A stretch of DNA of 64,000 nt from Brachyspira pilosicoli (lineage in GTDB: Bacteria; Spirochaetota; Brachyspiria; Brachyspirales; Brachyspiraceae), in assembly GCF_036997485.1 (NCBI RefSeq), contig NZ_JAWLPU010000003.1, positions 248,001 to 312,000 of the forward strand. Direction: 5' to 3'. The position numbers were made by a program, and so were the translations under genes. The notes under the pieces were generated by a model that was not told the origin of the DNA, did not search any database, and was given only the letters and a program-made list of their open reading frames with translations. Below are positions 33,559-50,457 of this stretch, in pieces (the first letter of the stretch is position 1; each line of letters starts with the position of its first letter).

Positions 33559-36500
33559 ATGAAATTAAGGCTATTATTATTACCATTATTTATTTTATTA
33601 TCTTGTGCATCCAGTCAAAAGAGTGCAGATTCTATTTTTAATAGCAGACCTTTTTTAAGAGAGTATAAAAGATATTCTCTAACTTCTGGAGAGGGGAATC
33701 CTGTATTAGATTCAGTTATAGACAGGGAAGGAACTTGGGTATATTATTCGAGAGAAAATGCAGGAAATACTGATATATTTGCTGTAGATTCTTATACGCT
33801 TGAAACTTTTAGGCTCACAAGAAGCCCGGGAATAGACTCCTCTGTATCTGTGGATAGTAAATCAAAATATTTGGTATTCTCTTCTACGAGAGATGATGCT
33901 TTTTCTGATATTTATTTATACAAATTAGTTAATCTTGGTATTAGAGCTTCAAAAAATAATTTAGAAAATTTAGAGCAGAGTATAATAAGAATAACAGACT
34001 ATAAAGGCTATGATACAGACCCAGAAATCTCTCATAATGCCGATATGATAGCTTTTGTTTCAGACAGAGAAGATAATATAAAAAAACTCTTCACAGTTAA
34101 GCCAAATGGTAAGGAAATAATTAAAAGAGCAGATATAGAAGCCTCTTCTCCTACATTCTCTTTTAATGACAGACATATTGCTTTTATTACTTCAAAAATA
34201 GGTGAGCCTTATTCTCAATTAGCAGTAGTAGACTTGCAAGCTAACTCCTACATCACAAATGATATTCAAACCAATTTGATGATTTTAACTGATACTAAAA
34301 CCTTTAAGTTTAATCCGTCATTTTACAACAACGACACTATAATTTATTTTGAAATAGCAAATGATACTGATAAAGACGGTAATTTAACATATAATGATAA
34401 AAGAAGATTAATGTCTTATTCTTTGTCTACAGGACAATATTATGTATTAGAAGAAAATACAAGTTTAAGCACATTTAATGTAGCTTATGAATCTGCTTTA
34501 GTAGGAAGCTATGTATTAAGCACTTCAGGCACTAGTATAGTAACTATGGGCTCTACCAAAGAATATTTCATTAAAGATGCTAATGCTAATGATATGTATA
34601 ATACCTTTGTTGCTTTGCCTTATAACAGAAAAGTTGAAGTAATAGAGAAGTTTTCAGAGTATTTCCCTTCAGATGAAGATAGGGGCAATGTATCAAAGGC
34701 TTATTTCGATGTAATGTATCAGGCCTATACTAATAACAACAGAGATATTTACAATACTTCAAAAAATGTTCTAACAACAGAATATACTAACACTTTTTAC
34801 GGATTTTTGGCTTTAAAGATAGATGAAAATTTTGACACTAATGATAATTGGCTTAATGCTTCATATTATACTACAAATGAATCAATTATCACAAGCAATG
34901 AAAATATAGTAAATGCTTTATCTTGGGCGGGTTACATATCTGCTAATGAAAAATATAATAAAAATAACACAAATGCTTCAACATTAGAAATGCTAAATAG
35001 TATAATAGACTATGACAGCAGCAAAGATTTATATGTATTAATATCAAAATTATATTCTCATTCACTTGAAGATAATAATTATAAATATCCTGCAGATGAG
35101 GATTTGTATAATAAACCTTATAGAAGAAAAGATTTAATATTTGCAGACAGACTTGAAATAGCAAAAGATTTTATAAAAGATTCAAAGATTCCTTATCAAA
35201 CTATAATAGATAATTCCCACCCATACTCACCATTATCTGTAGCAAGCAGACTTATATATTTAGACGGACTTATACTTGCTAAAAATTATGATGCGGCAAC
35301 CAATTTATTTCAGCCGTATATGGAATCAAAAAATGATATAATGCTTGCTTTGGGTTATTATGCTAATGCTAAAATATTATTAGACAAAAAAGATGATGCA
35401 GCTTATCAATTATTAGTAAATGCCGTAAAAAGCGGAGGCAAAAACTTTGAGCCTACTTATGAAGCAAAAGAATCCAAAAGAATACTTGCCAACTATTATA
35501 GAACTTTAGCAGACAATGCTTATAATGAAGAGAGATATAATATTGCTTATGACAATTATCAAGAAGTTTTAGTTTATAATCCTAATGATGCCAATGCTTC
35601 TTCAAGAATTATTGAAAGCGGACTTAGAGCATACAGCACCATAGAATCACTTGAGAAAACTATAGCAGAGAGGGAGAGAACTCTTTTATCTACAAGATAT
35701 TCAGAGCATGCAGCACATGCAGAGCTTGCTAATGCCTACTATTATTTGGCTAATAGATATTACGGCATAGCTATGTCTAAACAATATGACAGCGAAAGGT
35801 ATGTGCTTAGCGAGAAAAAAAGAGAAGACGGATTTTATTTGTATTTGAATAAGTCTTTTAATACTATAGTAGATAAAGCAGTCTCTTATATGGATTTTGC
35901 TATATTCCTTTATCCTGATGAAGAGAATTATTATATAAAAAAGGCTGAAATGCTTACATTTGCAGAAGCCTTAAAGATGCAGGTGCTTCAAAGCGATAAA
36001 ACATATAAAAGCATAATGGAATTAGTGCCAAGCTATAAAGACAATAATGTAAATAATGATAAATATATAGGCTACAATCAATTAACTCTTCAAACGCCAA
36101 ATTTGGAAAGCGAAATAATTGATTCTCTTATAATGGCTAAAAGCAAAATAAAAACTAAGCCTAATGTTGTATCTATAATGCTTGCAAACTCTTACTTAAT
36201 AAACGGCAGATACTCTGATGCAGCTAATGAATATAAAGAAGCTGAAATGCTATTAAACAGTGTAGGAAGCGACAAGAGTAAGGCTTGGTATCATTTCTTC
36301 TATGGATATTCTTTGTGGATGAACAATGATATTAATGGAGCTTATAGAGAATATAATAAAGCCAGAGAGATTTTTGAAAGACTTGGAGACAGTGAAGCAG
36401 TATACAAAATAGTAGGATACACTTCAGTTGCTGCCATTGAACAAAAAGACTACACTAAAGCTATTGAATCTTTATTAGAAAGAAATACTATAATTACAAA

Positions 36501-39500
36501 CAATGTAGAGCAGAATGAACTTAATGAACTTCTTATTGCTGCTTGCTACTTAAAACTTGAAGATTATAACAATGCATTAAAATACTGCGACAATGTGAAG
36601 GCAAAAATAGACAGTTTGGATTCTTCTTCATATAATCCAAATTATGTAAGTATTACTTTATATGGTGCTAATATCAATGTTGTAAACTTAGGGCTTGCTT
36701 CTTTCGGAGGATATATACCGGGTGAGCCTCTTAATGTTGATAAACAGCAGATGCTTTATTCTATATATCAAGAGCTTTATGAGAAGATGGGAAGATATTC
36801 AGAGGCAAGAGAAGCTTTATCTTCATATAGAAATTATATTATTAAAGATAAGCCAAAAAAATCAATACAGCCTTTAATGCTTTCTACCTACTACAATAAT
36901 GAAGGTTATTTATATTATAAGCAAGGCTCTGTTTCTAATTCTATTATGTCTTTTAGAAAGTCTATAGAAGAATACAGAAAAACTATAAACTCTAATGCCC
37001 TTAACAATAACCCAAGTTTAATATACGAAAATGCTCAAAATGATGCTAAAAACTATTTGAGCTTATCATCACTTTATTTAAGATATTTATCGCAAAATGA
37101 TTTAACTGCTATGAGAAGAGATTTTTTTATGGAGTTGTTTGATACTATAAAAACTCTTCAGGTGCTTTCTACAAACAACAGCGTAAGCTCTAAAGACAGA
37201 TTATTATTATATTCACATATAGCAGCTTTTCAATATATAATGGCTTTGAAGCTTACTTCTGAAGCTAATGATTTAATGCTTAACAGAAAGAAAAATGACG
37301 GCTCTTTGGATATGAGCATGCATGATGTTAATGTTCAAAGACTTTATATGCTAAAAAATGCTATTGATAGATATAAATATATACTCTCATCAAACTCAAA
37401 CTTCCCTGTGGACTTAAAGACTGAAATAATTATTCGCTATAATTTAGCTAAGGCTTATGAGCTTGCGGGCAATATTGAAGAGGCGGCGAGAGAATATATA
37501 TCTGCTTTTTCTAAGGCTAAGGTTAATGCTTTTGCAGTTGAGGAGATTGCCATACTTACTACTTTAATAGATTTTAGTGAGAAGTATAGAGATATTTATC
37601 CTGACAGTCTTGATGAGCCTGTAATGTATGTGTTTAGAATATTACAGAGATTAAGAGAAAGCGTATTTATGATTACTTTTGCAGAAGAAAATAACCCTAT
37701 ACTGCAGGAAGCAAGGTATAAAGTAATAGAGTTTTTGGAAGGCAATTATCCTGATGCGAGCATTAATATACTTGCTATGTTTGATGCAATAGATATGCGT
37801 AAGGATTTTTTAGATAAAAGGCTCTATACACTCGGAGAGAATAATTATTATCTTAGAGATTATTATAAACTATATGAAAAAGCTCTCTATGCTTATCAAA
37901 AATATTTGTCTGCAGTAACAGCTAATTATGACAAAAAATTAGAAGCATCATCTCTAAAAGAAATTACAGAATATGAAAAAGAGGCTATTAAAACTTTTGA
38001 AAATACGCCTATAAAAAATATAGTAATTTGCGATGTGAAGGCTACAGATATAGATAAATCAATGCGTAGTGATGAGACTCTAATATGGGATACTTATTTA
38101 GGTTATAGATTTGTGAGGGAGAACAAAAAGACTTATTTCTATTATCAAACTAATGACTTAATAAAGACAAAAAACTATGTTACTCATATTGGTGAGAGTC
38201 CTATTGTTATGAGCAGTAATAACAACGCATTTGTACGCGAGCTTTATGATTCTACTGAGTATATGCTTCCTCCTAAGGTTGCTTATGTTGATAACAGATT
38301 AATTTCTTTTTATAAGGTTAATAGAAACGACAGAAAAAATATAGATATGACTGCCTCTTCTGCAAGCAACACTCTTCTTACAAATAATGTAAACTATGCA
38401 GATAATTATAGAGAAAATGAAGCAAGAGTGATGCAGGTTAATTATGTAGAAAATGATAATAATGAAATTGATAATGAAATCAGTACTAATAATATAATTA
38501 CTAATAATATAACTAATACTACTACTCGCTCTACTAACAGAGTAAGAAAGTTTAGGTTTATACCGTTTAATGATTTATTAACTAACTCCTATGTGCCTTT
38601 GGTTGTGGACATTACAGATGCTAAGGCTTCTGATATATCAAACTTAATGAAAAAGAATTTCTACATACTTTATGCAGACAAGAAAACTTTTGATGAAAAT
38701 AAAGAAGTATTAAAAGAAGTTAATAATATAGCATTAGTAGTAGGCAATTCTAATACATATTCAAGAATAATGTTTTATACTAATTATTTCCAAAGTCTTG
38801 TAAGCAACTCTTTGGAAGATAGTATGAAAGGCTATGACAACAATCTCTTTACAGTATACGGAAAGCCAGATAATAGCATGACAACTCTTTCAAATGAAAC
38901 TTATAATTTCAAAAGCCGTTTGCTTGCATCATACAAAAAAACGCCTTCTGTTAGCATGATTTCTAATATTATAAGCTATTCACAATCTCCTAATGAGATT
39001 ATGTATAATTATGCTTATTTTATAGAAGATAGATATAATGTAAAAGACACCAACACTGCATACAATCTCTCTGAAGACGGATATAAATATTTTGCTTCCT
39101 CCTACAGTAATATAAGCGATTCTAATGCCTACTACTTTATGAAGGCAATGCTTCCTGTTTATAGAAGACTTGGAGATGAAGGGGCTGTTAAGGGTGCTAG
39201 AAGAGCTTTGCATTTTATGTATCTATACACAAATGAAAATTATCATTTAATAGATGAATACTTTACTCCTCGCACATTGTCAAGATTCTTAAAGTCAGGG
39301 GAGACTGTAGAAAATAATGTAAGATATGTAAATTATATAGCACAGAGAACTACAGGCACAAATAAAAATAAAATATTAGAAATAGCAGTGCTTTATGATT
39401 TAATATATGCTAAAACTCCTTTAGATAAAGTAACAAACTTGCTTACTCTAATGACAAATACAAATCAAATACTCACAGTTGCAAATACAATATTAGATAA

Positions 39501-40518
39501 TAAAACTACAAATGAGGCTAATATATTCTTAACTATGGATTATATTTACGGCAATCAGTATATATTTGAAGCTAATACTATTTCATCATTTGCTAATTTA
39601 TTTTATTCGCTTTATAAAGATAAGCCAAGTTATATATACGGACTTCTAAATAAAATAAGAGTGCCTGAGAGCGATTTTAGAAAGAATATTTATAATGCAT
39701 ACAACATATTTAGTAATGAAAACACCAATACTATGTTTATATTCTATTCTTATGAAGATGATAAATATACTTCTTACAGTTATGTTGTTGGTGATAATGA
39801 AGTAAAAAAATCTTCTCTTGTATCTATTGATAAATTGAGAGATAGTTTAACTGCATTTACAAATGCTCCTAATGCTAATGAAAGAATGAAAGCATTAAAA
39901 ACTATAGAGTCTCAAATGCTTCCTTCAGATGTATCTAAAAATGCATCAAGGGTGAACACTGTTTATATTACAGGCTCTTATCCTAATTTGTTTACTATAC
40001 CTTTTGCTTATTTTAATGATTTTAAGAATGCTGATGTTATAAAGATAAGAGAGTTAAAGTACGTGCCTATGGACGTTATTAATATAGGCAAGGCTAATAT
40101 TAAATTAAATACTCAAACTAATTTTTACACATCATTAGAGAGTTTAGCTGTTGGTTATGGTAAGGGAAATAGAAAAGTGCCTCTTACTCACTATATAGGA
40201 ATAGACACCAACTACAATAAGCCTTATAATAAAGAAGATATATTCCTCTCTCCTGCAAGAAATGCTGATATATTTAGGTATTTAAGCGACAGAAGCAATA
40301 ACAAATTAATGTTTACATACAGTACAGACTTATCAGGCGATTATTACACTGTTATGAAATATTTGTATATGAACTTTAATAATGGCGTCATAGATTCTTA
40401 CAGATATATTAAAAATAATGCTGTAAACCCTAATATTATCAATGCTTCAGATATAAATACATTATTTAAGGGAAGCTATACTTTATTTGACTACATACTT
40501 CCTGGCATACCAAAATAA
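33559..40518 (+). CDS. Giant lipoprotein with a TolB-like propeller and TPR repeats
   Basis: The protein has 2319 residues. The lipoprotein signal ends LLSCASS (Cys16). Residues about 45-260 form TolB/PD40-type propeller blades (WVYYSRENAGNTDIFAVDSYT, YLVFSSTRDDAFSDIYLYKL, MIAFVSDREDNIKKLF). From about 600 to 1350 the sequence is dominated by TPR-like helix pairs, for example AWYHFFYGYSLWMNNDINGAYREYNKA. A low-complexity Asn/Thr stretch near 1640-1655 precedes a C-terminal region. There, NTVYITGSYPNLFTIPFAYF resembles the core strand of CHAT domains, but no His-Cys pair is visible, so any such domain would be inactive. It is probably a periplasm-facing scaffold; partners are unknown. The size is exceptional for this window. 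Confidence 0.8.
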   Translation: MKLRLLLLPLFILLSCASSQKSADSIFNSRPFLREYKRYSLTSGEGNPVLDSVIDREGTWVYYSRENAGNTDIFAVDSYTLETFRLTRSPGIDSSVSVDSKSKYLVFSSTRDDAFSDIYLYKLVNLGIRASKNNLENLEQSIIRITDYKGYDTDPEISHNADMIAFVSDREDNIKKLFTVKPNGKEIIKRADIEASSPTFSFNDRHIAFITSKIGEPYSQLAVVDLQANSYITNDIQTNLMILTDTKTFKFNPSFYNNDTIIYFEIANDTDKDGNLTYNDKRRLMSYSLSTGQYYVLEENTSLSTFNVAYESALVGSYVLSTSGTSIVTMGSTKEYFIKDANANDMYNTFVALPYNRKVEVIEKFSEYFPSDEDRGNVSKAYFDVMYQAYTNNNRDIYNTSKNVLTTEYTNTFYGFLALKIDENFDTNDNWLNASYYTTNESIITSNENIVNALSWAGYISANEKYNKNNTNASTLEMLNSIIDYDSSKDLYVLISKLYSHSLEDNNYKYPADEDLYNKPYRRKDLIFADRLEIAKDFIKDSKIPYQTIIDNSHPYSPLSVASRLIYLDGLILAKNYDAATNLFQPYMESKNDIMLALGYYANAKILLDKKDDAAYQLLVNAVKSGGKNFEPTYEAKESKRILANYYRTLADNAYNEERYNIAYDNYQEVLVYNPNDANASSRIIESGLRAYSTIESLEKTIAERERTLLSTRYSEHAAHAELANAYYYLANRYYGIAMSKQYDSERYVLSEKKREDGFYLYLNKSFNTIVDKAVSYMDFAIFLYPDEENYYIKKAEMLTFAEALKMQVLQSDKTYKSIMELVPSYKDNNVNNDKYIGYNQLTLQTPNLESEIIDSLIMAKSKIKTKPNVVSIMLANSYLINGRYSDAANEYKEAEMLLNSVGSDKSKAWYHFFYGYSLWMNNDINGAYREYNKAREIFERLGDSEAVYKIVGYTSVAAIEQKDYTKAIESLLERNTIITNNVEQNELNELLIAACYLKLEDYNNALKYCDNVKAKIDSLDSSSYNPNYVSITLYGANINVVNLGLASFGGYIPGEPLNVDKQQMLYSIYQELYEKMGRYSEAREALSSYRNYIIKDKPKKSIQPLMLSTYYNNEGYLYYKQGSVSNSIMSFRKSIEEYRKTINSNALNNNPSLIYENAQNDAKNYLSLSSLYLRYLSQNDLTAMRRDFFMELFDTIKTLQVLSTNNSVSSKDRLLLYSHIAAFQYIMALKLTSEANDLMLNRKKNDGSLDMSMHDVNVQRLYMLKNAIDRYKYILSSNSNFPVDLKTEIIIRYNLAKAYELAGNIEEAAREYISAFSKAKVNAFAVEEIAILTTLIDFSEKYRDIYPDSLDEPVMYVFRILQRLRESVFMITFAEENNPILQEARYKVIEFLEGNYPDASINILAMFDAIDMRKDFLDKRLYTLGENNYYLRDYYKLYEKALYAYQKYLSAVTANYDKKLEASSLKEITEYEKEAIKTFENTPIKNIVICDVKATDIDKSMRSDETLIWDTYLGYRFVRENKKTYFYYQTNDLIKTKNYVTHIGESPIVMSSNNNAFVRELYDSTEYMLPPKVAYVDNRLISFYKVNRNDRKNIDMTASSASNTLLTNNVNYADNYRENEARVMQVNYVENDNNEIDNEISTNNIITNNITNTTTRSTNRVRKFRFIPFNDLLTNSYVPLVVDITDAKASDISNLMKKNFYILYADKKTFDENKEVLKEVNNIALVVGNSNTYSRIMFYTNYFQSLVSNSLEDSMKGYDNNLFTVYGKPDNSMTTLSNETYNFKSRLLASYKKTPSVSMISNIISYSQSPNEIMYNYAYFIEDRYNVKDTNTAYNLSEDGYKYFASSYSNISDSNAYYFMKAMLPVYRRLGDEGAVKGARRALHFMYLYTNENYHLIDEYFTPRTLSRFLKSGETVENNVRYVNYIAQRTTGTNKNKILEIAVLYDLIYAKTPLDKVTNLLTLMTNTNQILTVANTILDNKTTNEANIFLTMDYIYGNQYIFEANTISSFANLFYSLYKDKPSYIYGLLNKIRVPESDFRKNIYNAYNIFSNENTNTMFIFYSYEDDKYTSYSYVVGDNEVKKSSLVSIDKLRDSLTAFTNAPNANERMKALKTIESQMLPSDVSKNASRVNTVYITGSYPNLFTIPFAYFNDFKNADVIKIRELKYVPMDVINIGKANIKLNTQTNFYTSLESLAVGYGKGNRKVPLTHYIGIDTNYNKPYNKEDIFLSPARNADIFRYLSDRSNNKLMFTYSTDLSGDYYTVMKYLYMNFNNGVIDSYRYIKNNAVNPNIINASDINTLFKGSYTLFDYILPGIPK

Positions 40519-40639: not shown

Positions 40640-40936
40640 ATGGACTTATTAGCACATATTTTAGCAACAGAAAATGATGAGAAGTTTATTAAAAGCCTGC
40701 TTTCAGAGCTTTTTACAAAGGACGAACAAGATATGATTCAGCAAAGACTTAGGATAGTCACCTTGCTAAGGAGGAAAATGCCTCAATACGAAATAGCAAA
40801 AAGCTTAAATGCTAGTCTTTGTTCCATTACAAGAGGGGCAAAGGAATTAAAAAAACAAGATAGTGCTTTGGCGGTTATAGTTGATAAATACCTAATGAAC
40901 AATAAAGAGTTTCAAGAATCTCTAAACAAATCATAA
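40640..40936 (+). CDS. TrpR-like (Trp repressor superfamily) regulator
   Basis: The protein has 98 residues. The segment LFTKDEQDMIQQRLRIVTLLRRKMPQYEIAKSLNASLCSITRGAKELKKQ aligns in pattern with the TrpR core (two helices, then helix-turn-helix with ITRG). The family also includes YerC-type regulators of other pathways. No trp genes are near, so tryptophan as ligand is uncertain. Its last codons overlap the convergent hemW by 6 bases. Confidence 0.8.
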   Translation: MDLLAHILATENDEKFIKSLLSELFTKDEQDMIQQRLRIVTLLRRKMPQYEIAKSLNASLCSITRGAKELKKQDSALAVIVDKYLMNNKEFQESLNKS

Positions 40937-42058
40937 AAACAATAAACTAATCTCATCTGCATAATTAAAATAATTTTCTTTTATAGATAAATATTCATCT
41001 GTTATAAGGAAATAATTTTTGTTGTTTTTTATAATGGCTGAATATTTGTCTATAAAGTCTTCTTTAAATAGAGTATTATAATTATTTATATCTATGCCTT
41101 TTACAGTCCTTAAAGAAAGAAATATAAACTCTTTTTTTTGTGTTTCTTTGTCTATATATTCTATTTCTCTATTAGGCTTTTTATTTTGTTTAACATGTTC
41201 GATATAGTCTTTAATGTTTCTTATGTTTTCGTATCTTTCATTGTTGTAGTATCCTACAGCAGAAGCTCCCAAGCCTAAATAACTTTTTAGTTTCCAGTAA
41301 TTTGAATTATGTATTGACTCATAATTATTAATAGCATAGTTTGATATTTCGTATCTTATAAATCCCAAATCTTTTAATGTGTTTGAAGATATTTCATAAT
41401 ATTCCACACTTTCCTCTTCTTTTGGCAGATAATCTCTCCATTTCTCTTCGAGTGATTTTGTAAGTTCCAAATAGTAAAGCGATATATGTTTTGTTTTGGG
41501 GAGAATATCTAATGCTTTTAGAATGTCTTTTTTTGTTTGAAGCTTATCATTTAGGGGAAGTCCAGATATGAAGTCAAGAGAGATGTTTGCTATAGCGGAG
41601 TCATTTATTATTTTTAGCGCTTTTATTATCTCTTCTAATTCTGTATGCCTATTGATGAGAGACAAAGATTTTTCATTGAATGTTTGAAGCCCTAATGATA
41701 TTCTTATATTTTCTATACTTTCTAAAAAACTAATATATTCACTGTTTATATCATTAATATTTGATTCTATTGTTATTTCTTTTATTAGTTTTATGTTTTG
41801 ATGATTTTTAAGAATGGTTAATATATTGTCTAATAAATATTTAAGTAAATTAGCATTTAATACTGAAGGAGTGCCTCCTCCGAAATATATTGTATTTATT
41901 TCTTCTTTATAATCATTTATTCTTAGTTTTAATTCTGATATAAGTGCTTCTGCATAGTTTTTATATGTTTCTTTTTCATTCATATTAACAACAGAAAAAA
42001 AATTACAGTAGCTGCATTTGTATGTGCAAAAGGGTATATGTATGTATAGACCAGACAT
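40931..42058 (-). CDS. hemW: HemW-like radical SAM protein
   Basis: The protein has 375 residues. The N-terminus GLYIHIPFCTYKCSYCNFFS holds the radical SAM CX3CX2C followed by F, typical of the HemN/HemW family. GGGTPS and the TIM-barrel strands follow (ISLGLQTFNEKSLSLINR, ISLDFISGLP). HemW proteins are haem chaperones rather than coproporphyrinogen oxidases, and the one-residue-shifted CX2CNF motif fits HemW. Its ATG overlaps the sigma factor stop (TAATG), so it is in the same operon. Confidence 0.88.
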   Translation of the reverse strand: MSGLYIHIPFCTYKCSYCNFFSVVNMNEKETYKNYAEALISELKLRINDYKEEINTIYFGGGTPSVLNANLLKYLLDNILTILKNHQNIKLIKEITIESNINDINSEYISFLESIENIRISLGLQTFNEKSLSLINRHTELEEIIKALKIINDSAIANISLDFISGLPLNDKLQTKKDILKALDILPKTKHISLYYLELTKSLEEKWRDYLPKEEESVEYYEISSNTLKDLGFIRYEISNYAINNYESIHNSNYWKLKSYLGLGASAVGYYNNERYENIRNIKDYIEHVKQNKKPNREIEYIDKETQKKEFIFLSLRTVKGIDINNYNTLFKEDFIDKYSAIIKNNKNYFLITDEYLSIKENYFNYADEISLLFL

Positions 42059-42912
42059 TAGTTTAAGAAATCTTTAAGAGAGCTGTATCTTTTATAATAC
42101 ATTTTTTTAAGGGCTTTTTTTTCTATTTGTCTTATACGTTCTTTTGTAAATGAATAGTTCTCTCCAATCTCTTTTAAAGTTTTTTTCTCTTGGTCAAGAC
42201 CATATCTTGCATTAACTATTTCTTTTTCTATATCGGAAAGCCCTTCCATAGCAATTTTCAATTCTTCAGTAAGCTCTTTATCAGATAGAATATCTTCAAC
42301 AGTTTTGCTGTTTTTATCTTCAACCACATCAACCAATCTGTCTTTAACCCCATCCATATTAAAGTCTTTTTCAAGCGACACATATTCATTATTCATAGCC
42401 ATAATATTTCTAATTTCTCTAGGCTCTTTTTTTAATATGGAAGCTAAATCCTCAACATCAGGCATGTGTCCAGTCTTGTAGTAGCATTGATGAACAGCCC
42501 TCTCTAAATCCACCAAATCCATAGCCTTATTCAAAGGAAGCCTTATGAGTCTTGATTTTTCATTGATGGCTCTTAATATGCTCTGTCTTATCCAATAAAC
42601 AGCATAAGAAATAAAATGATATCCCTTGTCAGGGTCAAATCTATCAGTTGCTATTATAAGCCCCAAATTGCCCTCACCTATTAAATCTTCCAAAAGCAAA
42701 CCGCTGTTTTTATACTGCTTGGCAATGCTTATTACAAATCTTAAATTGCTTCTTATAAGCTTAGCCCTCGCCTGAGAATCTCCCTTTTTTAGTCTTTGAG
42801 TTAATTCTATTTCCTCTTCTCTTGTAAGAAGTTTCTCTCTCTTGGCATCTGCAAAATATAAAGATATATTATTATTTTCTTCTAAATTACTCTTTGTTTT
42901 ACTGTTTGGCAT
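42058..42912 (-). CDS. Sigma-70 family RNA polymerase sigma factor (RpoD/RpoS group)
   Basis: The protein has 284 residues without a long region 1.1. Region 1.2 (ISLYFADAKREKLLTREEEIELTQRL), region 2 (RFVISIAKQYKNSGLLLEDLIGEGNLGLIIATDRFDPDKGYHFISYAVYWIRQSILRAI), region 3 and region 4 (KTLKEIGENYSFTKERIRQIEKKALKKM) are all present. The compact size and RLPLNKAM after region 2.4 recall the short sigma factors of Bacteroidetes-type bacteria. Whether it is the housekeeping or an alternative factor cannot be decided from this window. It lies 17 bases after lpxC and overlaps hemW. Confidence 0.93.
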   Translation of the reverse strand: MPNSKTKSNLEENNNISLYFADAKREKLLTREEEIELTQRLKKGDSQARAKLIRSNLRFVISIAKQYKNSGLLLEDLIGEGNLGLIIATDRFDPDKGYHFISYAVYWIRQSILRAINEKSRLIRLPLNKAMDLVDLERAVHQCYYKTGHMPDVEDLASILKKEPREIRNIMAMNNEYVSLEKDFNMDGVKDRLVDVVEDKNSKTVEDILSDKELTEELKIAMEGLSDIEKEIVNARYGLDQEKKTLKEIGENYSFTKERIRQIEKKALKKMYYKRYSSLKDFLN

Positions 42913-42929: not shown

Positions 42930-44210
42930 TTATAAATATCTATTAGCAAGATCATGTACAACAGAATGATTAAAGGAATGTGAAGATTTATTAGCTATCA
43001 CCCTTCCTATGATAGGTCTTCCTAATATATACAAGTCTCCTATTATATCTAAAATCTTATGTCTTACAAACTCATTATCGAAATGAAGTTTTGTATTAAT
43101 TACTTTACCGTCGCTAAGAAGTATATGGCTTCCTATCATGCCGCTTCCAGCCATACCCATCTTTTGAGCATAGTCAATATTATCTATAGTGTTAAAAGAC
43201 CTTGCCCTTCCTACTTCCTCAGTAAACTGCTCGAAATTATCAAACTTGTATGTATACTCCTGAACGCCGATTGTTCCTGCAAAATCTATACGCAAACTCA
43301 CCTCAAGACCATCATAAGGAGAAAGTATTATATAAGTTTCATTATCATTAACATTTCCATAGGTGAGAGTTTCATCTATCACTATAGGCTCTATATAATC
43401 ATCTTGCTCAACAAATCCAGCCTCTTTCAAAGCATTACAAAATACTAATGCAGAACCATCAACATTAGGTACTTCCCCGTCGCATTTTACTATTAAGTTT
43501 GTTATGCCCATCATGTGAAGTGCTGCCAAGAAATGCTCGGTTGTTTTTATATATCTGTTTCCTGCTACTAATGCTGTAGAGTTTACCGCTCCTGATTTAT
43601 CTTTTGAAAGTATGTTGGTGTGGTCTAATTTTATTTGAGTGTTGGTATTAATATCAATAAAAACGATGCCGGTATTAACTTCAGCAGGTACTAAAGTAAG
43701 GGCTGTTTTTCTTCCTTCCATTAGGGCAAAACCGCTTACAACTATACTTTTAGCTATTGTTCTTTGCTTCACTTTATATTTGTTGTTAGATTTATGATGA
43801 TGGATATTATTGTTATTTAAAGTATTATTTTCTATGCTTTTTTCATTTTTCTTAAAAACTTCATCGCATGAAGATAATAATTTGCTTATGCTGATAGGTT
43901 TTTCTAAAAAGTCATAAGCTCCCATTTTGGTAGCTCTTACAGCAGTTTCTACACCAGCATGTCCGCTCATCATTATAACAGCAGTATCAGGATATTTATT
44001 TTTTATTTTTGATAATATATCCAAACCATCTACATTAGGAAGCCATACATCTAAAAATACTAAATCTACCTTTTTGCTGTTAAATGTTTTTAAAGCTTCC
44101 TCATAACTGTTTGCAATATCAACATCATATCCTTCATCTTCTAATACATTTTTACAAGCATTCAAAATATCTTCTTCATCATCTATTATTAATACATTAT
44201 TTTTCATCAT
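42930..44210 (-). CDS. lpxC: Response-regulator receiver domain fused to LpxC deacetylase
   Basis: The protein has 426 residues in two parts. Residues 1-120 are a CheY/NtrC-type receiver: acidic pair Asp10-Asp11, phospho-acceptor Asp54 (VFLDVWLPNVDG), Ser82 and Lys104 (EKPIS). After an Asn/His-rich linker (about 121-148), residues 150-426 form LpxC, which deacetylates UDP-3-O-acyl-GlcNAc in the first committed step of lipid A synthesis. Catalytic residues are intact: Glu225-His226 (TTEHFLAAL), His384 and Asp388 (FVRHKILDIIGD), His411 (SSHSFNH). The usual GVGLHTG start is altered to GFALMEG (160-166). The fusion suggests lipid A synthesis is gated by a phosphorelay. It is first in the operon lpxC-sigma-hemW. 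Confidence 0.93.
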   Translation of the reverse strand: MMKNNVLIIDDEEDILNACKNVLEDEGYDVDIANSYEEALKTFNSKKVDLVFLDVWLPNVDGLDILSKIKNKYPDTAVIMMSGHAGVETAVRATKMGAYDFLEKPISISKLLSSCDEVFKKNEKSIENNTLNNNNIHHHKSNNKYKVKQRTIAKSIVVSGFALMEGRKTALTLVPAEVNTGIVFIDINTNTQIKLDHTNILSKDKSGAVNSTALVAGNRYIKTTEHFLAALHMMGITNLIVKCDGEVPNVDGSALVFCNALKEAGFVEQDDYIEPIVIDETLTYGNVNDNETYIILSPYDGLEVSLRIDFAGTIGVQEYTYKFDNFEQFTEEVGRARSFNTIDNIDYAQKMGMAGSGMIGSHILLSDGKVINTKLHFDNEFVRHKILDIIGDLYILGRPIIGRVIANKSSHSFNHSVVHDLANRYL

Positions 44211-44408
44211 AATTCAAATTTCCTACTTTAAATATAATATTATATTAATAATATAAAATCAATATATTATATATATAAATTATCGGAATTATGTTAATAT
44301 AATAGTATAATTATTCATTTTTTAATATAGTTTATATGTATATAAAAATGAAAAAAATATAAATTAATTAAATATATATATAAACTTTATAAGGATTAAT
44401 TTTTGTAT

Positions 44409-44615
44409 ATGAAAAAGATAATAATAATACCAGATTCATTTAAGGGAAGTGCGAGTAGTTTAGAGGTTTGCGAGTGTATAGAGAGAGGAGGTATTAAAGG
44501 CAGTTAAAGATGTTATTATAAAAAAGGTTCCTATAGAAGACGGGGCGAGGGTACAGTTGAAAGTGTGATTTATGCTGCTGGGGGAGAGTTTATAAGAGTT
44601 GATGTAAAAAAAACA
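44409..44615 (+). pseudogene. Decayed glycerate kinase (GlxK/GarK type), 5' fragment
   Basis: From ATG 44409 the sequence reads MKKIIIIPDSFKGSASSLEV and on to CIERG, the N-terminus of glycerate 2-kinases. Two frameshifts follow. The first comes after ERG (the frame resumes as VLKAVKDVIIKKVPIEDG). The second is a lost G within GACGGGGCGAGG, after which EGTVESVIYAAGGEFIRVDV continues. Only about 65 codons remain; the rest is replaced by repeat copy 8 starting a few bases later. The 200 bases before it are AT-rich with no other feature. Confidence 0.85.
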
Positions 44616-44856: not shown

Positions 44857-44889
44857 AGTATAACCTCTTATTAACATATATCTTTTATG

Positions 44890-45335
44890 CGTGCGGGTTG
44901 TTACTTTTTAGTACACAATAAATATATCCTATTAGTACACAATAAATATATCCTAAACTCTAACCTCGCCAGTTAATAACTTTTGCATAACTCCTTTTTT
45001 TTGAAGCTTTCGAAGGTGTAAGAGCTGTTTAAGAATTTCTATATCTTTATCAACTGCGAGCCGCAGCACCTTTCCGCACGATATAACCTCTTATTAACAC
45101 ATATCTTTTATGCGTGCGGGTTGTTACTTTTTAGTACACAATAAATATATCCTATTAGTACACAATAAATATATCCTAAACCCTAACCTCGCCAGTTAAT
45201 AACTTTTGCATAACTCCTTTTTTTTGAAGCTTTCGAAGGTGTAAGAGCCGTTTAAGAATTTCTATATCTTTATCAACTGCGAGCCGCAGCACCTTTCCGC
45301 ACGATATAATCTCTTATTAACACATATCTTTTATG
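44890..45335. repeat. Two tandem 223-base copies of the hsdS 3' end
   Basis: The units 44890-45112 and 45113-45335 are nearly identical and each begins CGTGCGGGTTGTTAC. On the minus strand each encodes the last HsdS residues (DKDIEILKQLL...QKLLTGEVRV-stop), the same as the end of the intact gene at 45375. Homology to the gene stops at about 45472. Each unit also holds a 46-base element with ends CCGCACG...CGTGCGG (45074-45119, 45297-45342). Confidence 0.9.
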
Positions 45336-45374
45336 CGTGCGGGTTGTTACTTTTTAGTACACAATAAATATATC

Positions 45375-46484
45375 CTAAACCCTAACCTCGCCAGTTAATA
45401 ACTTTTGCATAACTCCCTTTTTTTGAAGTTTTCGAAGGTGTAAGAGCTGTTTAAGAATTTCTATATCTTTATCAATGAGTGTAAGGAGTTCAGCAATTTT
45501 TTTTTGTTCTTCTATTGAAGGTGGTATATAAAAAGACATATCTAAAATAAATTTAAAATGTCTATTATACCCCGTGTTTGGTATATATTGATTGCTTAAG
45601 TGATAATACATAAATTTTGTATTAAATTTTTTGTTTGTTTTTAATAATTGTAGTCCGTCAGCACCTACTATAAAATTAAAATCTATATATTTAAAAATTC
45701 TTGTATGGTCTCCGAATGCAATTACATTATCGTTATTGAAAACTTTATCTATGTTATCACTATAAGCAGATATGTATTTTTTGCCTTGGTCAATTACAGG
45801 ATACTTGCCTATTTCTTTATATTCATTTTGATTAATTTGATATTTTTTAGCAGCTACTCTTATAAAGATATCTTCAAATTTATAGCTTTGCCATTTGTCT
45901 GTAAATCCATTGAAACGTACTTTCCCGCTTAAAATTTTTTGCATCACTCCTTTTTTGTAAAGCTCTTTTTTTTCTATTAGCTTTGTTAGATTTTCTATTA
46001 ACTTATCACATATAGAAAGTATGTCTGATATGCGTTTTTGTTCATCTATTGGTGGGAGAATTATATTGAAATTAATTATATCATCTTTTGTAATAGCGCC
46101 GAATGTTGTACCTTTTTGATTATTTAAAAGTTTATTTTTATAATATTTTAAAATATAAAATATATAATTGTTAATGCTTTTATTGTTAGAGTTTATTGCG
46201 CATAAACCTCTTCCTATACATATATTGGTATTAGCAATATTTACATCACCGACAGGAGCCCTAACGCTCATTAAAATAGATCCGCTTTTAGCTACTTTTT
46301 TTATATCAGAAGAATATATGTTGAATGTGGGGTATATATATCCAAAAGTTGAACTCCCTTGTAAAAAAGGCAAACCTTTATTATCTTTATTATAGAATTT
46401 AGATTTAGGTGATTGTCCCATTACTATATCTGCTATATCACCAAGTTTTACTTCTTCCCAACCGCTTGGCAAACTTCTATTCAT
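45375..46484 (-). CDS. hsdS: Type I restriction-modification specificity subunit HsdS (no hsdM/hsdR adjacent)
   Basis: HsdS gives type I systems their DNA target through two recognition domains. The protein has 369 residues: TRD1 begins LPSGWEEVKLGDIADIVMGQSP; central conserved region PPIDEQKRISDILSICDKLIENLTKLIEKKELYKKGVMQKILSG; TRD2 begins DKWQSYKFEDIF; distal repeat PPSIEEQKKIAELLTLIDKDIEILKQLLHLRKLQKKGVMQKLLTG. The two helical regions match each other, as usual. GGAGGAG precedes the ATG. No hsdM or hsdR lies on either side within the window. It may serve as a donor of TRDs for another locus or act with a distant methylase. Confidence 0.9.
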   Translation of the reverse strand: MNRSLPSGWEEVKLGDIADIVMGQSPKSKFYNKDNKGLPFLQGSSTFGYIYPTFNIYSSDIKKVAKSGSILMSVRAPVGDVNIANTNICIGRGLCAINSNNKSINNYIFYILKYYKNKLLNNQKGTTFGAITKDDIINFNIILPPIDEQKRISDILSICDKLIENLTKLIEKKELYKKGVMQKILSGKVRFNGFTDKWQSYKFEDIFIRVAAKKYQINQNEYKEIGKYPVIDQGKKYISAYSDNIDKVFNNDNVIAFGDHTRIFKYIDFNFIVGADGLQLLKTNKKFNTKFMYYHLSNQYIPNTGYNRHFKFILDMSFYIPPSIEEQKKIAELLTLIDKDIEILKQLLHLRKLQKKGVMQKLLTGEVRV

Positions 46485-48493: not shown

Positions 48494-49408
48494 GTGATTT
48501 ATATTTTTGTTAGTTTGATTATTGTTATTATAGCTATCCTTCTCTGCTATCTCTATTATGAAATAAAAATACACAACACTAAAAAAATAAATAATAATCT
48601 GCAAATAATGCTCGCTGTTAAAACTTATGATAATGACTTAATTAACATAATAAAAGATGATGATGTTAAAGGAATAATCATTAACATAGCCGATATTAAT
48701 ACAATTGAAAAACTAATAAAAAATATAAAAGAAAATATAAATAAAAAAATATTCATAGCATTAGACGAAGATTATAAGCCTACGCATAATTTATTTTTTG
48801 ACCAGCACTTTAAGGTTTATCAAAGCTATATTGGTGAGAGGCAAAGCGAAACTTATGCATACGATATTGCTAAAAAAAGGGCATCTACTCTTAAAGCTAT
48901 TGGCGTTAATATGTTTTTATCTCCTGTAGTAAATACTCTCTGTAATGAAAAATCTCATCTAAAAGAGCATATCTTCAGCGGCGATAAACAAATTGCTTCA
49001 AAGTTAATATCTCAAACAATTAAAGCGTATAAAGACAAAGGCGTCCTCACCGCCGCAAAATATTTTCCAAAATACTATGATGATGAGTTATATATAGAAG
49101 ATAATATGAAAAATGTTGAAAATATAATCGACTCAAAACAAACCTTCTTGTCGGCAATAGAAAGCGACTTCTTTGTGATGAGCCATATTAAAAATGAAAA
49201 ATTATATAGAGATTATCTTTTTAATAGCCTTAACTTTAATGGCGTTGTAATGACAGATTATATTAATAAATACTCTCTTATAAATAATAATTTGCTTAAT
49301 GTTATTGATTATAGGTTTTATAAATTAAATAGAGAAAAGATAAAAAATATTAAAACAGAGGATAGTGAATTATGCGTAAAAATTTCAAAGCTGTTAAATC
49401 GATTATAA
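48494..49408 (+). CDS. Degenerate glycoside hydrolase family 3-like membrane-anchored protein
   Basis: The protein has 304 residues from a GTG start, with an N-terminal membrane anchor (about 3-22). It aligns in layout with the GH3 lipoprotein downstream: YDIAKKRASTLKAIGVNMFLSPVVNTLC matches YNIAYNKANFLKDMGINMILGPLCDVP, and LNFNGVVMTDYINK matches MGFKGVIITDDLVM. Catalytic parts are lost: the GH3 motif KHFPGHGDT is AKYFPKYYDDE here, and the EEGG loop is replaced by DEDYKP. It is probably inactive. The Shine-Dalgarno is weak. It overlaps the active paralogue by 37 bases. Confidence 0.8.
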   Translation: MIYIFVSLIIVIIAILLCYLYYEIKIHNTKKINNNLQIMLAVKTYDNDLINIIKDDDVKGIIINIADINTIEKLIKNIKENINKKIFIALDEDYKPTHNLFFDQHFKVYQSYIGERQSETYAYDIAKKRASTLKAIGVNMFLSPVVNTLCNEKSHLKEHIFSGDKQIASKLISQTIKAYKDKGVLTAAKYFPKYYDDELYIEDNMKNVENIIDSKQTFLSAIESDFFVMSHIKNEKLYRDYLFNSLNFNGVVMTDYINKYSLINNNLLNVIDYRFYKLNREKIKNIKTEDSELCVKISKLLNRL

Positions 49409-50457
49409 TTTTATTTAGTTTTGTAATTGTTGGGTTAGCTATTAATTCTTGCACCAAAAAAGACAGCATCACAGAAGATGAAAAATATATTTTAGAATTG
49501 AAAAAAAAATATTCTTATTTATCTGATTATATAGATGAAGTTAATAGTATGAGCATTGAAGAGAGGAGAGGGCTTCTTACTATGGTGGGCATCACTGACA
49601 CAGTATTAAGCGAGGAAACTATAAAGACATTAAAAGATAATCATATTGCTGGCGTTATACTTTTTAATTACAACATAGTAGACGAGGAACAATTAAAAAA
49701 ACTCACATCAGACTTAAAGAAATATGTTAACAAAAATATGTTAATCTCTATAGACGAAGAAGGAGGAGAAGTCTTTAGAATACCTTTCGACAAATACAAA
49801 GACATTTCAGCAAAAATGATAGGCGACAGCAACAGCATTGAATATGCCTACAACATAGCCTACAACAAAGCAAACTTTCTAAAAGATATGGGTATTAATA
49901 TGATACTTGGTCCGTTATGCGATGTGCCAAGCAATAAAGATTCTTATATATATAATAGAAGCTTTTCTACAAATGTTGAAATGGTTTCAAAGATGATAGA
50001 AGCTACAATAAAAGCTCAGAAAGATGCCGGTATTATAAGCGTTGTTAAACATTTTCCCGGTCATGGGGACACCGCTGTTAATTCGCATGATGAGTTTCCT
50101 GTAATAGACAAGACTTTAGAAGAGCTTAAAAATAAAGAATTAATACCTTTTCAAAAGGCTATAGATTTGGGTGCTGAGATGGTTTTAATTTCTCATATAA
50201 AAAATAAATATATAGATGATGAGCTTCCTGCCAGCATGTCAGAAAAATATAGAAAATTGCTCGAGGAAGATATGGGTTTTAAAGGCGTGATTATTACAGA
50301 CGACCTCGTTATGACAGGCAAGATTAACAGCACTATCAATTATGGTATAAATCTCACAAGCAATATTTATAAAAATGTAAAAGATATGTTTAGAAATATT
50401 GAACCAGATATAATTTCATGTGCTAAGGTATTAAAGATAATGAGAGAAAATACCTAA
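49372..50457 (+). CDS. Glycoside hydrolase family 3 (NagZ-like) lipoprotein
   Basis: The protein has 361 residues with a lipoprotein signal ending LAINSC (Cys27). GH3 motifs are intact: SIDEEGGEVFRI near 127-138, KHFPGHGDTAVNSHDEFPVI at 226-245 (the His/Asp pair of NagZ-type enzymes), and TDDLVM at 309-314 with the nucleophile Asp. It probably removes beta-linked N-acetylglucosamine from muropeptides or glycans outside the cytoplasm. The start lies inside the end of the degenerate paralogue. Confidence 0.9.
   Translation: MRKNFKAVKSIIILFSFVIVGLAINSCTKKDSITEDEKYILELKKKYSYLSDYIDEVNSMSIEERRGLLTMVGITDTVLSEETIKTLKDNHIAGVILFNYNIVDEEQLKKLTSDLKKYVNKNMLISIDEEGGEVFRIPFDKYKDISAKMIGDSNSIEYAYNIAYNKANFLKDMGINMILGPLCDVPSNKDSYIYNRSFSTNVEMVSKMIEATIKAQKDAGIISVVKHFPGHGDTAVNSHDEFPVIDKTLEELKNKELIPFQKAIDLGAEMVLISHIKNKYIDDELPASMSEKYRKLLEEDMGFKGVIITDDLVMTGKINSTINYGINLTSNIYKNVKDMFRNIEPDIISCAKVLKIMRENT

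Follow-up and report, generated by a model that had tools for sequence, protein, structure and literature searches.

A response-regulator receiver fused to LpxC in Brachyspira and related spirochaetes, and an NtrY-like candidate kinase for it

Introduction

LpxC catalyses the committed step of lipid A synthesis; it is under tight control and is a target for drugs. In the window analysed here, a 64,000-nucleotide stretch of the Brachyspira pilosicoli genome (G000:C3:248001-312000; genome size 2.72 Mb), LpxC is encoded together with a response-regulator receiver domain in one gene. This locus raises the question of whether lipid A synthesis is gated by a phosphorelay that acts on LpxC itself, as the original prediction from this DNA had proposed, and if so, which histidine kinase would be the partner. 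The modes of LpxC control known so far are the FtsH-LapB-YejM route, MurA binding and Lon (PMC12444477), as well as transcriptional control in Desulfovibrio by the regulator DVU2934 of a two-component system (PMC3333781). Here we describe the fusion protein, its spread and the selection acting on it, the type of receiver that it carries and a candidate kinase.

Results

The fusion protein has an intact receiver and an intact LpxC domain

The coordinates of the fusion gene, its domains and the genes discussed with it are listed in Table 1. A search of the whole source genome revealed no second LpxC, so that the fusion is the sole LpxC. Its LpxC domain scored well above the Pfam cut-off (PF03331, 236.7 bits against 27) and also above the NCBIfam equivalog cut-off (TIGR00325 lpxC, 201.8 against 187.25), and the fold of the protein matched solved LpxC structures in Foldseek. 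The zinc and catalytic residues E225, H226, H384, D388 and H411 align to E78, H79, H238, D242 and H265 of E. coli LpxC. The receiver is CheY-like and has the complete switch set, consisting of two acidic residues (D10, D11), the phospho-accepting Asp (D54), the Ser/Thr switch (S82) and the Lys (K104). The original prediction of one protein joining an intact receiver to LpxC was correct, as was its placement of D10, D11, D54, K104 and the aligned zinc and catalytic residues. By its domains and residues the fusion protein is a response regulator with LpxC as its output domain, predicted to accept phosphate and to function as a deacetylase.

Table 1. Coordinates of the receiver-LpxC fusion gene, its parts and associated genes. 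Plain coordinates are positions in the window; those with an L prefix are positions in the respective locus.
Feature	Position	Strand	Basis or remark
hemW	40931..42058	-	TIGR00539 above cut-off; 1 bp overlap with the sigma-70 family gene
Sigma-70 family (RpoS/RpoD-like) gene	42058..42912	-	Downstream of the lpxC fusion, 17 bp gap
Receiver-LpxC fusion gene	42930..44210	-	426 aa, single open frame without stop
LpxC domain, residues 149-422 (E225, H226, H384, K385, D388, H411)	42945..43766	-	Pfam PF03331 E 4.3e-70; alignment with E. coli LpxC; Foldseek
GFALMEG replacing GxGLHSG, residues 160-166	43713..43733	-	Brachyspirales-specific change
Variable linker, residues 121-146	43773..43850	-	Predicted disordered (pLDDT <50 at 121-143); omega 0.3-1.4
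NtrX-type receiver domain, residues 6-113 (D10, D11, D54, S82, K104)	43872..44195	-	Pfam PF00072 E 2.8e-32; NF051870 E 4.8e-35; LDxW and EKP signature
Codon of predicted phospho-acceptor Asp54	44049..44051	-	Residue alignment of fusions
Stand-alone receiver-like protein without phospho-Asp	L123:3270-3632	-	
Stand-alone receiver-like protein without phospho-Asp	L124:3299-3652	-	
Stand-alone receiver-like protein without phospho-Asp	L125:3255-3650	-	
Stand-alone receiver-like protein without phospho-Asp	L126:1121-1486	+	

An AlphaFold model of the fusion (pTM 0.67) contained two well-predicted domains joined by a disordered linker, with no confident docking of the receiver on LpxC. Structure prediction, which had been suggested as a means of seeing the contact between the two domains, gave no confident one, and we claim no receiver-LpxC interface.

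E. coli LpxC runs about 25 residues past the C-terminal end of the fusion protein in the alignment, and the FtsH degron tail of the E. coli enzyme is missing here. No LapB was found in the source genome, where the sole match to the LapB zinc-ribbon Pfam model was RadA. Since neither the degron tail nor LapB was found, the enterobacterial FtsH-LapB route is unlikely to operate in this organism. These observations bear on an alternative in which the receiver sets the lifetime of LpxC: phosphorylation would uncover or mask a site on which Lon, ClpXP or FtsH acts, replacing the E. coli route of C-terminal degron and LapB. LpxC levels are controlled by proteolysis in several bacteria (PMC12444477), and the absence of both the degron tail and LapB would require a different degradation route. 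However, the protein carries no sequence sign of a protease site, and a receiver joined to LpxC fits allosteric control equally well; we regard control of lifetime as unlikely and favour an effect of the receiver on LpxC activity.

The fusion is fixed in one spirochaete clade and is under purifying selection

LpxC was searched in 393 Spirochaetota genomes and found in 110 of them. The fusion is present in 34 genomes. These are all 26 of Brachyspira, five others of Brachyspirales (three from two further genera of the same family, two from a sister family) and three from a distant order, in which every genome (3/3) is fused. The frames of 33 of them were read, from 25 Brachyspira, the five other Brachyspirales and the three members of the distant Spirochaetota order, and each frame starts with the receiver; in the remaining genome, G147, a contig edge cuts the gene and the fusion was assigned from the frame only. 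The other 76 LpxC-bearing Spirochaetota were classed as unfused, 34 by frames read and the others by frame length, an assessment that leaves aside a divergent 439-aa paralogue in G198. It had been considered that the two domains could be separate proteins in other strains; they form a single protein in every genome of the fused lineage that was read. The survey of the fusion covers Spirochaetota; one wider contig scan with patterns from the window protein returned close relatives only, the closest being two B. pilosicoli genomes with 95 and 93% protein identity. In viral contigs the full fusion was not found, as matches spanned either the receiver alone or LpxC alone.

Conservation of the receiver residues in orthologues was a further point on which the original prediction could have failed. 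An alignment of 13 diverse fusions revealed that D10, D11, D54, S82 and K104 of the receiver, and E225, H226, H384, K385, D388 and H411 of LpxC, are invariant in all 13. Omega between the window gene and seven within-family orthologues was 0.06-0.21 in the receiver and 0.04-0.10 in the LpxC domain, as compared to 0.3-1.4 in the linker; synonymous sites are close to saturation in the more distant pairs. Purifying selection on the two domains is strong, and constraint on the linker is much weaker. Having been read in 33 genomes, with purifying selection on both of its domains, the fusion lies far beyond chance. Rare fusions can appear by chance and then drift, and a functionless accident of this kind, or an artefact of assembly or annotation, could be put forward to explain the gene. 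Against it stand the low receiver omega beside a weakly constrained linker, switch residues that are all invariant, and the fact that none of the 34 genomes, many of them sequenced independently, has gone back to an unfused LpxC; this account is extremely improbable and is nearly excluded by the selection data.

The same invariance bears on whether the receiver is merely a structural or dimerisation module, or a reverse sensor that reports the state of LpxC to a kinase, with LpxC itself not being regulated. A long flexible linker would weaken mechanical coupling between the domains, which speaks for such a role, but the conservation of D10, D11, D54, S82 and K104 across two orders would be left unexplained. 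We consider this very unlikely, and continue with a receiver that would regulate LpxC through phosphorylation.

Phylogenetic analysis of 48 LpxC domains placed all fused ones in a single clade (bootstrap 100), which makes a single fusion event the simplest account. The simplest account of these sequences would be that an NtrX-type receiver was joined once to the N-terminus of LpxC, in the ancestor of Brachyspirales and the second Spirochaetota order.

The GFALMEG motif and the sigma/hemW operon are not tied to the proposed mechanism

The altered motif GFALMEG had been proposed to reflect contact with the receiver. This was rejected on the basis of three fused proteins that retain the canonical His motif, with GKGLHTG in G011, GIGLHSG in G035 and GTALHSG in G024. 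Since these three are fused and have the His, the GFALMEG change took place only in Brachyspirales and after the fusion. The His of GLHSG is Met in all aligned Brachyspirales fusions, an odd change given that it is retained in the other LpxC examined, whether fused or not.

The operon with a sigma factor and hemW, which the original prediction had also pointed out, is present in the window. The fusion-sigma-hemW order is shared by Brachyspira and the sister genus g2 and is missing from the other, more distant fused genera. Its linkage is lineage-specific, so the operon was rejected as a part of the proposed mechanism.

Several other features were observed in the window. At 44405-44500 there is the start of a glycerate-kinase-like frame (MKKIIIIPDSFKGSASSLEVCECIERGGIKG) that reaches a stop after about 30 codons, a broken remnant. 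Between this frame and a gene for a type I restriction specificity subunit (HsdS, PF01420; 45375-46484), next to which no hsdR or hsdM frame was recognised, lies a tandem repeat at 44859-45377 (period 223 bp, 2.3 copies, 98% matches). Two overlapping tandem genes at 48494-49408 and 49372-50457 encode glycosyl hydrolases of family 3, the first being far more diverged than the second, and a putative lipoprotein of 2319 aa with weak matches (TPR, WD40-like) is encoded at 33559-40518.

The fused receiver is of the NtrX type

The best NCBIfam response-regulator model for the fused receiver was that of NtrX (NF051870; Table 1). Two signature positions mark the type, a Trp two residues past the phospho-Asp (LDxW) and a Glu ahead of the Lys-Pro (EKP). 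Both were present in 12/12 fused receivers of the second tree set and in 17 of 23 receivers of NtrX encoded next to an NtrY-like kinase, compared to 0 of 11 receivers of other kinds. In six unfused genomes that encode NtrX next to the kinase (G003, G004, G006, G018, G033 and G040), the top match to the fused receiver was that NtrX. On two receiver trees of ~120 sites the fused receivers fell near NtrX; support of the deep nodes was near 30, so that descent of the receiver from NtrX is likely rather than proven. The Pfam search revealed neither a sigma-54 AAA+ domain nor a DNA-binding domain in the fusion protein, residues 149-422 being LpxC, and the fusion protein is therefore not an NtrX.

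An NtrY-like membrane kinase is the candidate partner

The source genome has few histidine kinases, five besides two CheA. Two of these five have a regulator as partner, a PhoB-like one for the PhoR-like kinase and a sigma-54 one for the NtrB-like kinase; the others are a GAF kinase, the NtrY-like kinase and a Nudix-kinase fusion. The Nudix-kinase fusion is one protein of 514 aa in which a Nudix hydrolase domain is joined to a HisKA-HATPase kinase (L086:379-1920 (+), in the G000:C2:329247 region).

The search for a partner kinase, which had been proposed with the original prediction, led to the NtrY-like orphan. This kinase (G000:C1:970529-972295) is predicted to have four membrane segments, its H-box is intact, and its gene is not adjacent to the fusion gene, the two being on contigs C1 and C3. 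Over most of its length it (L084) matches the kinases that are encoded directly upstream of NtrX in G003, G004 and G006. Its best NCBIfam model was NF047496 with a score of 159.8 against a curated cut-off of 750, and none of the top models is named NtrY; because of this low score we call the kinase NtrY-like only, a label based on the below-cut-off model, the position in relatives and the kinase's own likeness. A homologue was found in all 34 fused genomes (26 Brachyspira and eight others), the likeness being weak in G035 and G024 (25-27% identity), where the assignment also uses the shared psd neighbourhood.

What lies beside the kinase differs between fused and unfused genomes. For unfused Spirochaetota that have LpxC and a well-scoring NtrY-like kinase, and whose contig continues for 1.1 kb or more behind the kinase gene, the NtrX sigma-54 regulator is encoded directly downstream of the kinase in 22 of 25 genomes (the exceptions being G052, G037 and G002), whereas it is in this position in none of the 31 fused genomes that had as much downstream sequence. 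The fused genomes form one clade, so these 31 cases are not independent, and the disappearance of NtrX from this position and the origin of the fusion amount to few events. Next to the NtrY-like kinase gene and in convergent orientation, the Brachyspira genomes and those of one sister genus (G051, G043) carry a gene for a stand-alone receiver-like protein without the phospho-Asp (IFNPNLVW and similar; Table 1). This protein might be what is left of NtrX, or a pseudo-receiver acting on the kinase as a modulator.

A different phosphodonor could in principle serve the same switch, namely the GAF, Nudix or NtrB-like kinase, or a small donor such as acetyl phosphate. Receivers are generally able to accept phosphate from small donors, and further orphan kinases are present in the source genome (L086, L090). 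Three points argue against another donor: the kinase-NtrX pairs in relatives, the presence of the NtrY-like kinase throughout the fused genomes and the NtrX-type signature that the receiver carries. We hold such a donor to be improbable, and the NtrY-like kinase is our candidate in what follows.

In the distant fused order, the kinase gene is located directly behind psd (phosphatidylserine decarboxylase) in 3/3 genomes (L136, L208, L210); the psd of G035 passes TIGR00163 and those of G011 and G024 were assigned by sequence likeness. From this position, the same kinase may balance phospholipid against LPS in this order, one sensor acting on both.

Discussion

We propose that the NtrY-like membrane kinase would sense the state of the envelope and pass phosphate to Asp54 of the fused receiver. 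The phosphorylated receiver would shift its conformation or dimerise and, via the flexible linker, alter the activity of LpxC or, less likely, its stability, so that direct gating of LpxC would take over from the NtrX transcription factor. On balance, we think it probable that phosphate from an NtrY-like envelope kinase reaches the receiver and that this gates LpxC directly, in place of NtrX. The invariant residues, the one-protein architecture and the candidate kinase all support the phosphorelay control that was originally predicted; the phosphotransfer, the effect on LpxC and the sign of this effect are what we infer from them. Taken by itself, the sequence is compatible with possible control of LpxC activity, of its stability or of its localisation. 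For the evolutionary course, we see about even chances that the NtrX receiver left its sigma-54 activator and joined LpxC, with the NtrY-like kinase now setting lipid A synthesis by phosphorylating the committed enzyme. NtrYX and LpxC are also linked elsewhere, at the level of the transcript: in Rhodobacter sphaeroides, where NtrYX is tied to the envelope, deletion of ntrYX raised the lpxC transcript 8.8-fold and increased LPS, and an NtrX binding site is absent upstream of lpxC (PMC7240162).

The two halves of the protein are each of a known kind, and their union is undescribed in the literature that we found. In common with LpxC (PF03331, TIGR00325), the protein has the full domain, all zinc and catalytic residues and the solved fold; it differs in the added N-terminal receiver, the missing degron tail and, in Brachyspirales, the Met in place of the GLHSG His. 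With NtrX of the NtrYX system it shares the receiver type (NF051870, LDxW and EKP) and the presence of an NtrY-like kinase in the same genome, whereas here the AAA+ sigma-54 and DNA-binding domains are absent, the output is an enzyme and the gene is away from the kinase. To our knowledge, the enzymatic outputs of response regulators have so far all been signalling ones (methylesterase, c-di-GMP enzymes), in contrast to the committed biosynthetic enzyme found here. The combination of a receiver with a catalytic domain, and action without transcription, are common to the fusion and to such regulators (CheB, GGDEF, EAL, HD-GYP; PMC4114195). The LpxC-FabZ fusion of Bacteroidetes, Chlorobi and Verrucomicrobia is another naturally occurring LpxC fusion that became established in a lineage, but it unites two lipid enzymes rather than adding an N-terminal signalling domain (PMC3087551). 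The described modes of LpxC control act on the same control point, and that of Desulfovibrio is likewise two-component, but none has a receiver inside LpxC (PMC12444477, PMC3333781).

Our literature search, with most subscription journals outside its reach, found no published description of a receiver-LpxC protein, and neither a 2025 review (PMC12444477) nor a 2026 paper on LpxC control mentions a receiver or response regulator. Since a plain Pfam scan displays the architecture, domain databases probably list the fusion already.

If our reading is true, a phosphorelay within LpxC would be a further mode of control beyond proteolysis, a binding partner and transcription, and one kept in at least two spirochaete orders; a direct test is feasible with two purified proteins. 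It would also be a clear case of a two-component output that moved from gene regulation to an enzyme, and relatives that still have the older kinase-NtrX layout are available for comparison. In these spirochaetes, the outer LPS layer may be controlled by signalling to the enzyme itself and not via gene expression or protein breakdown.
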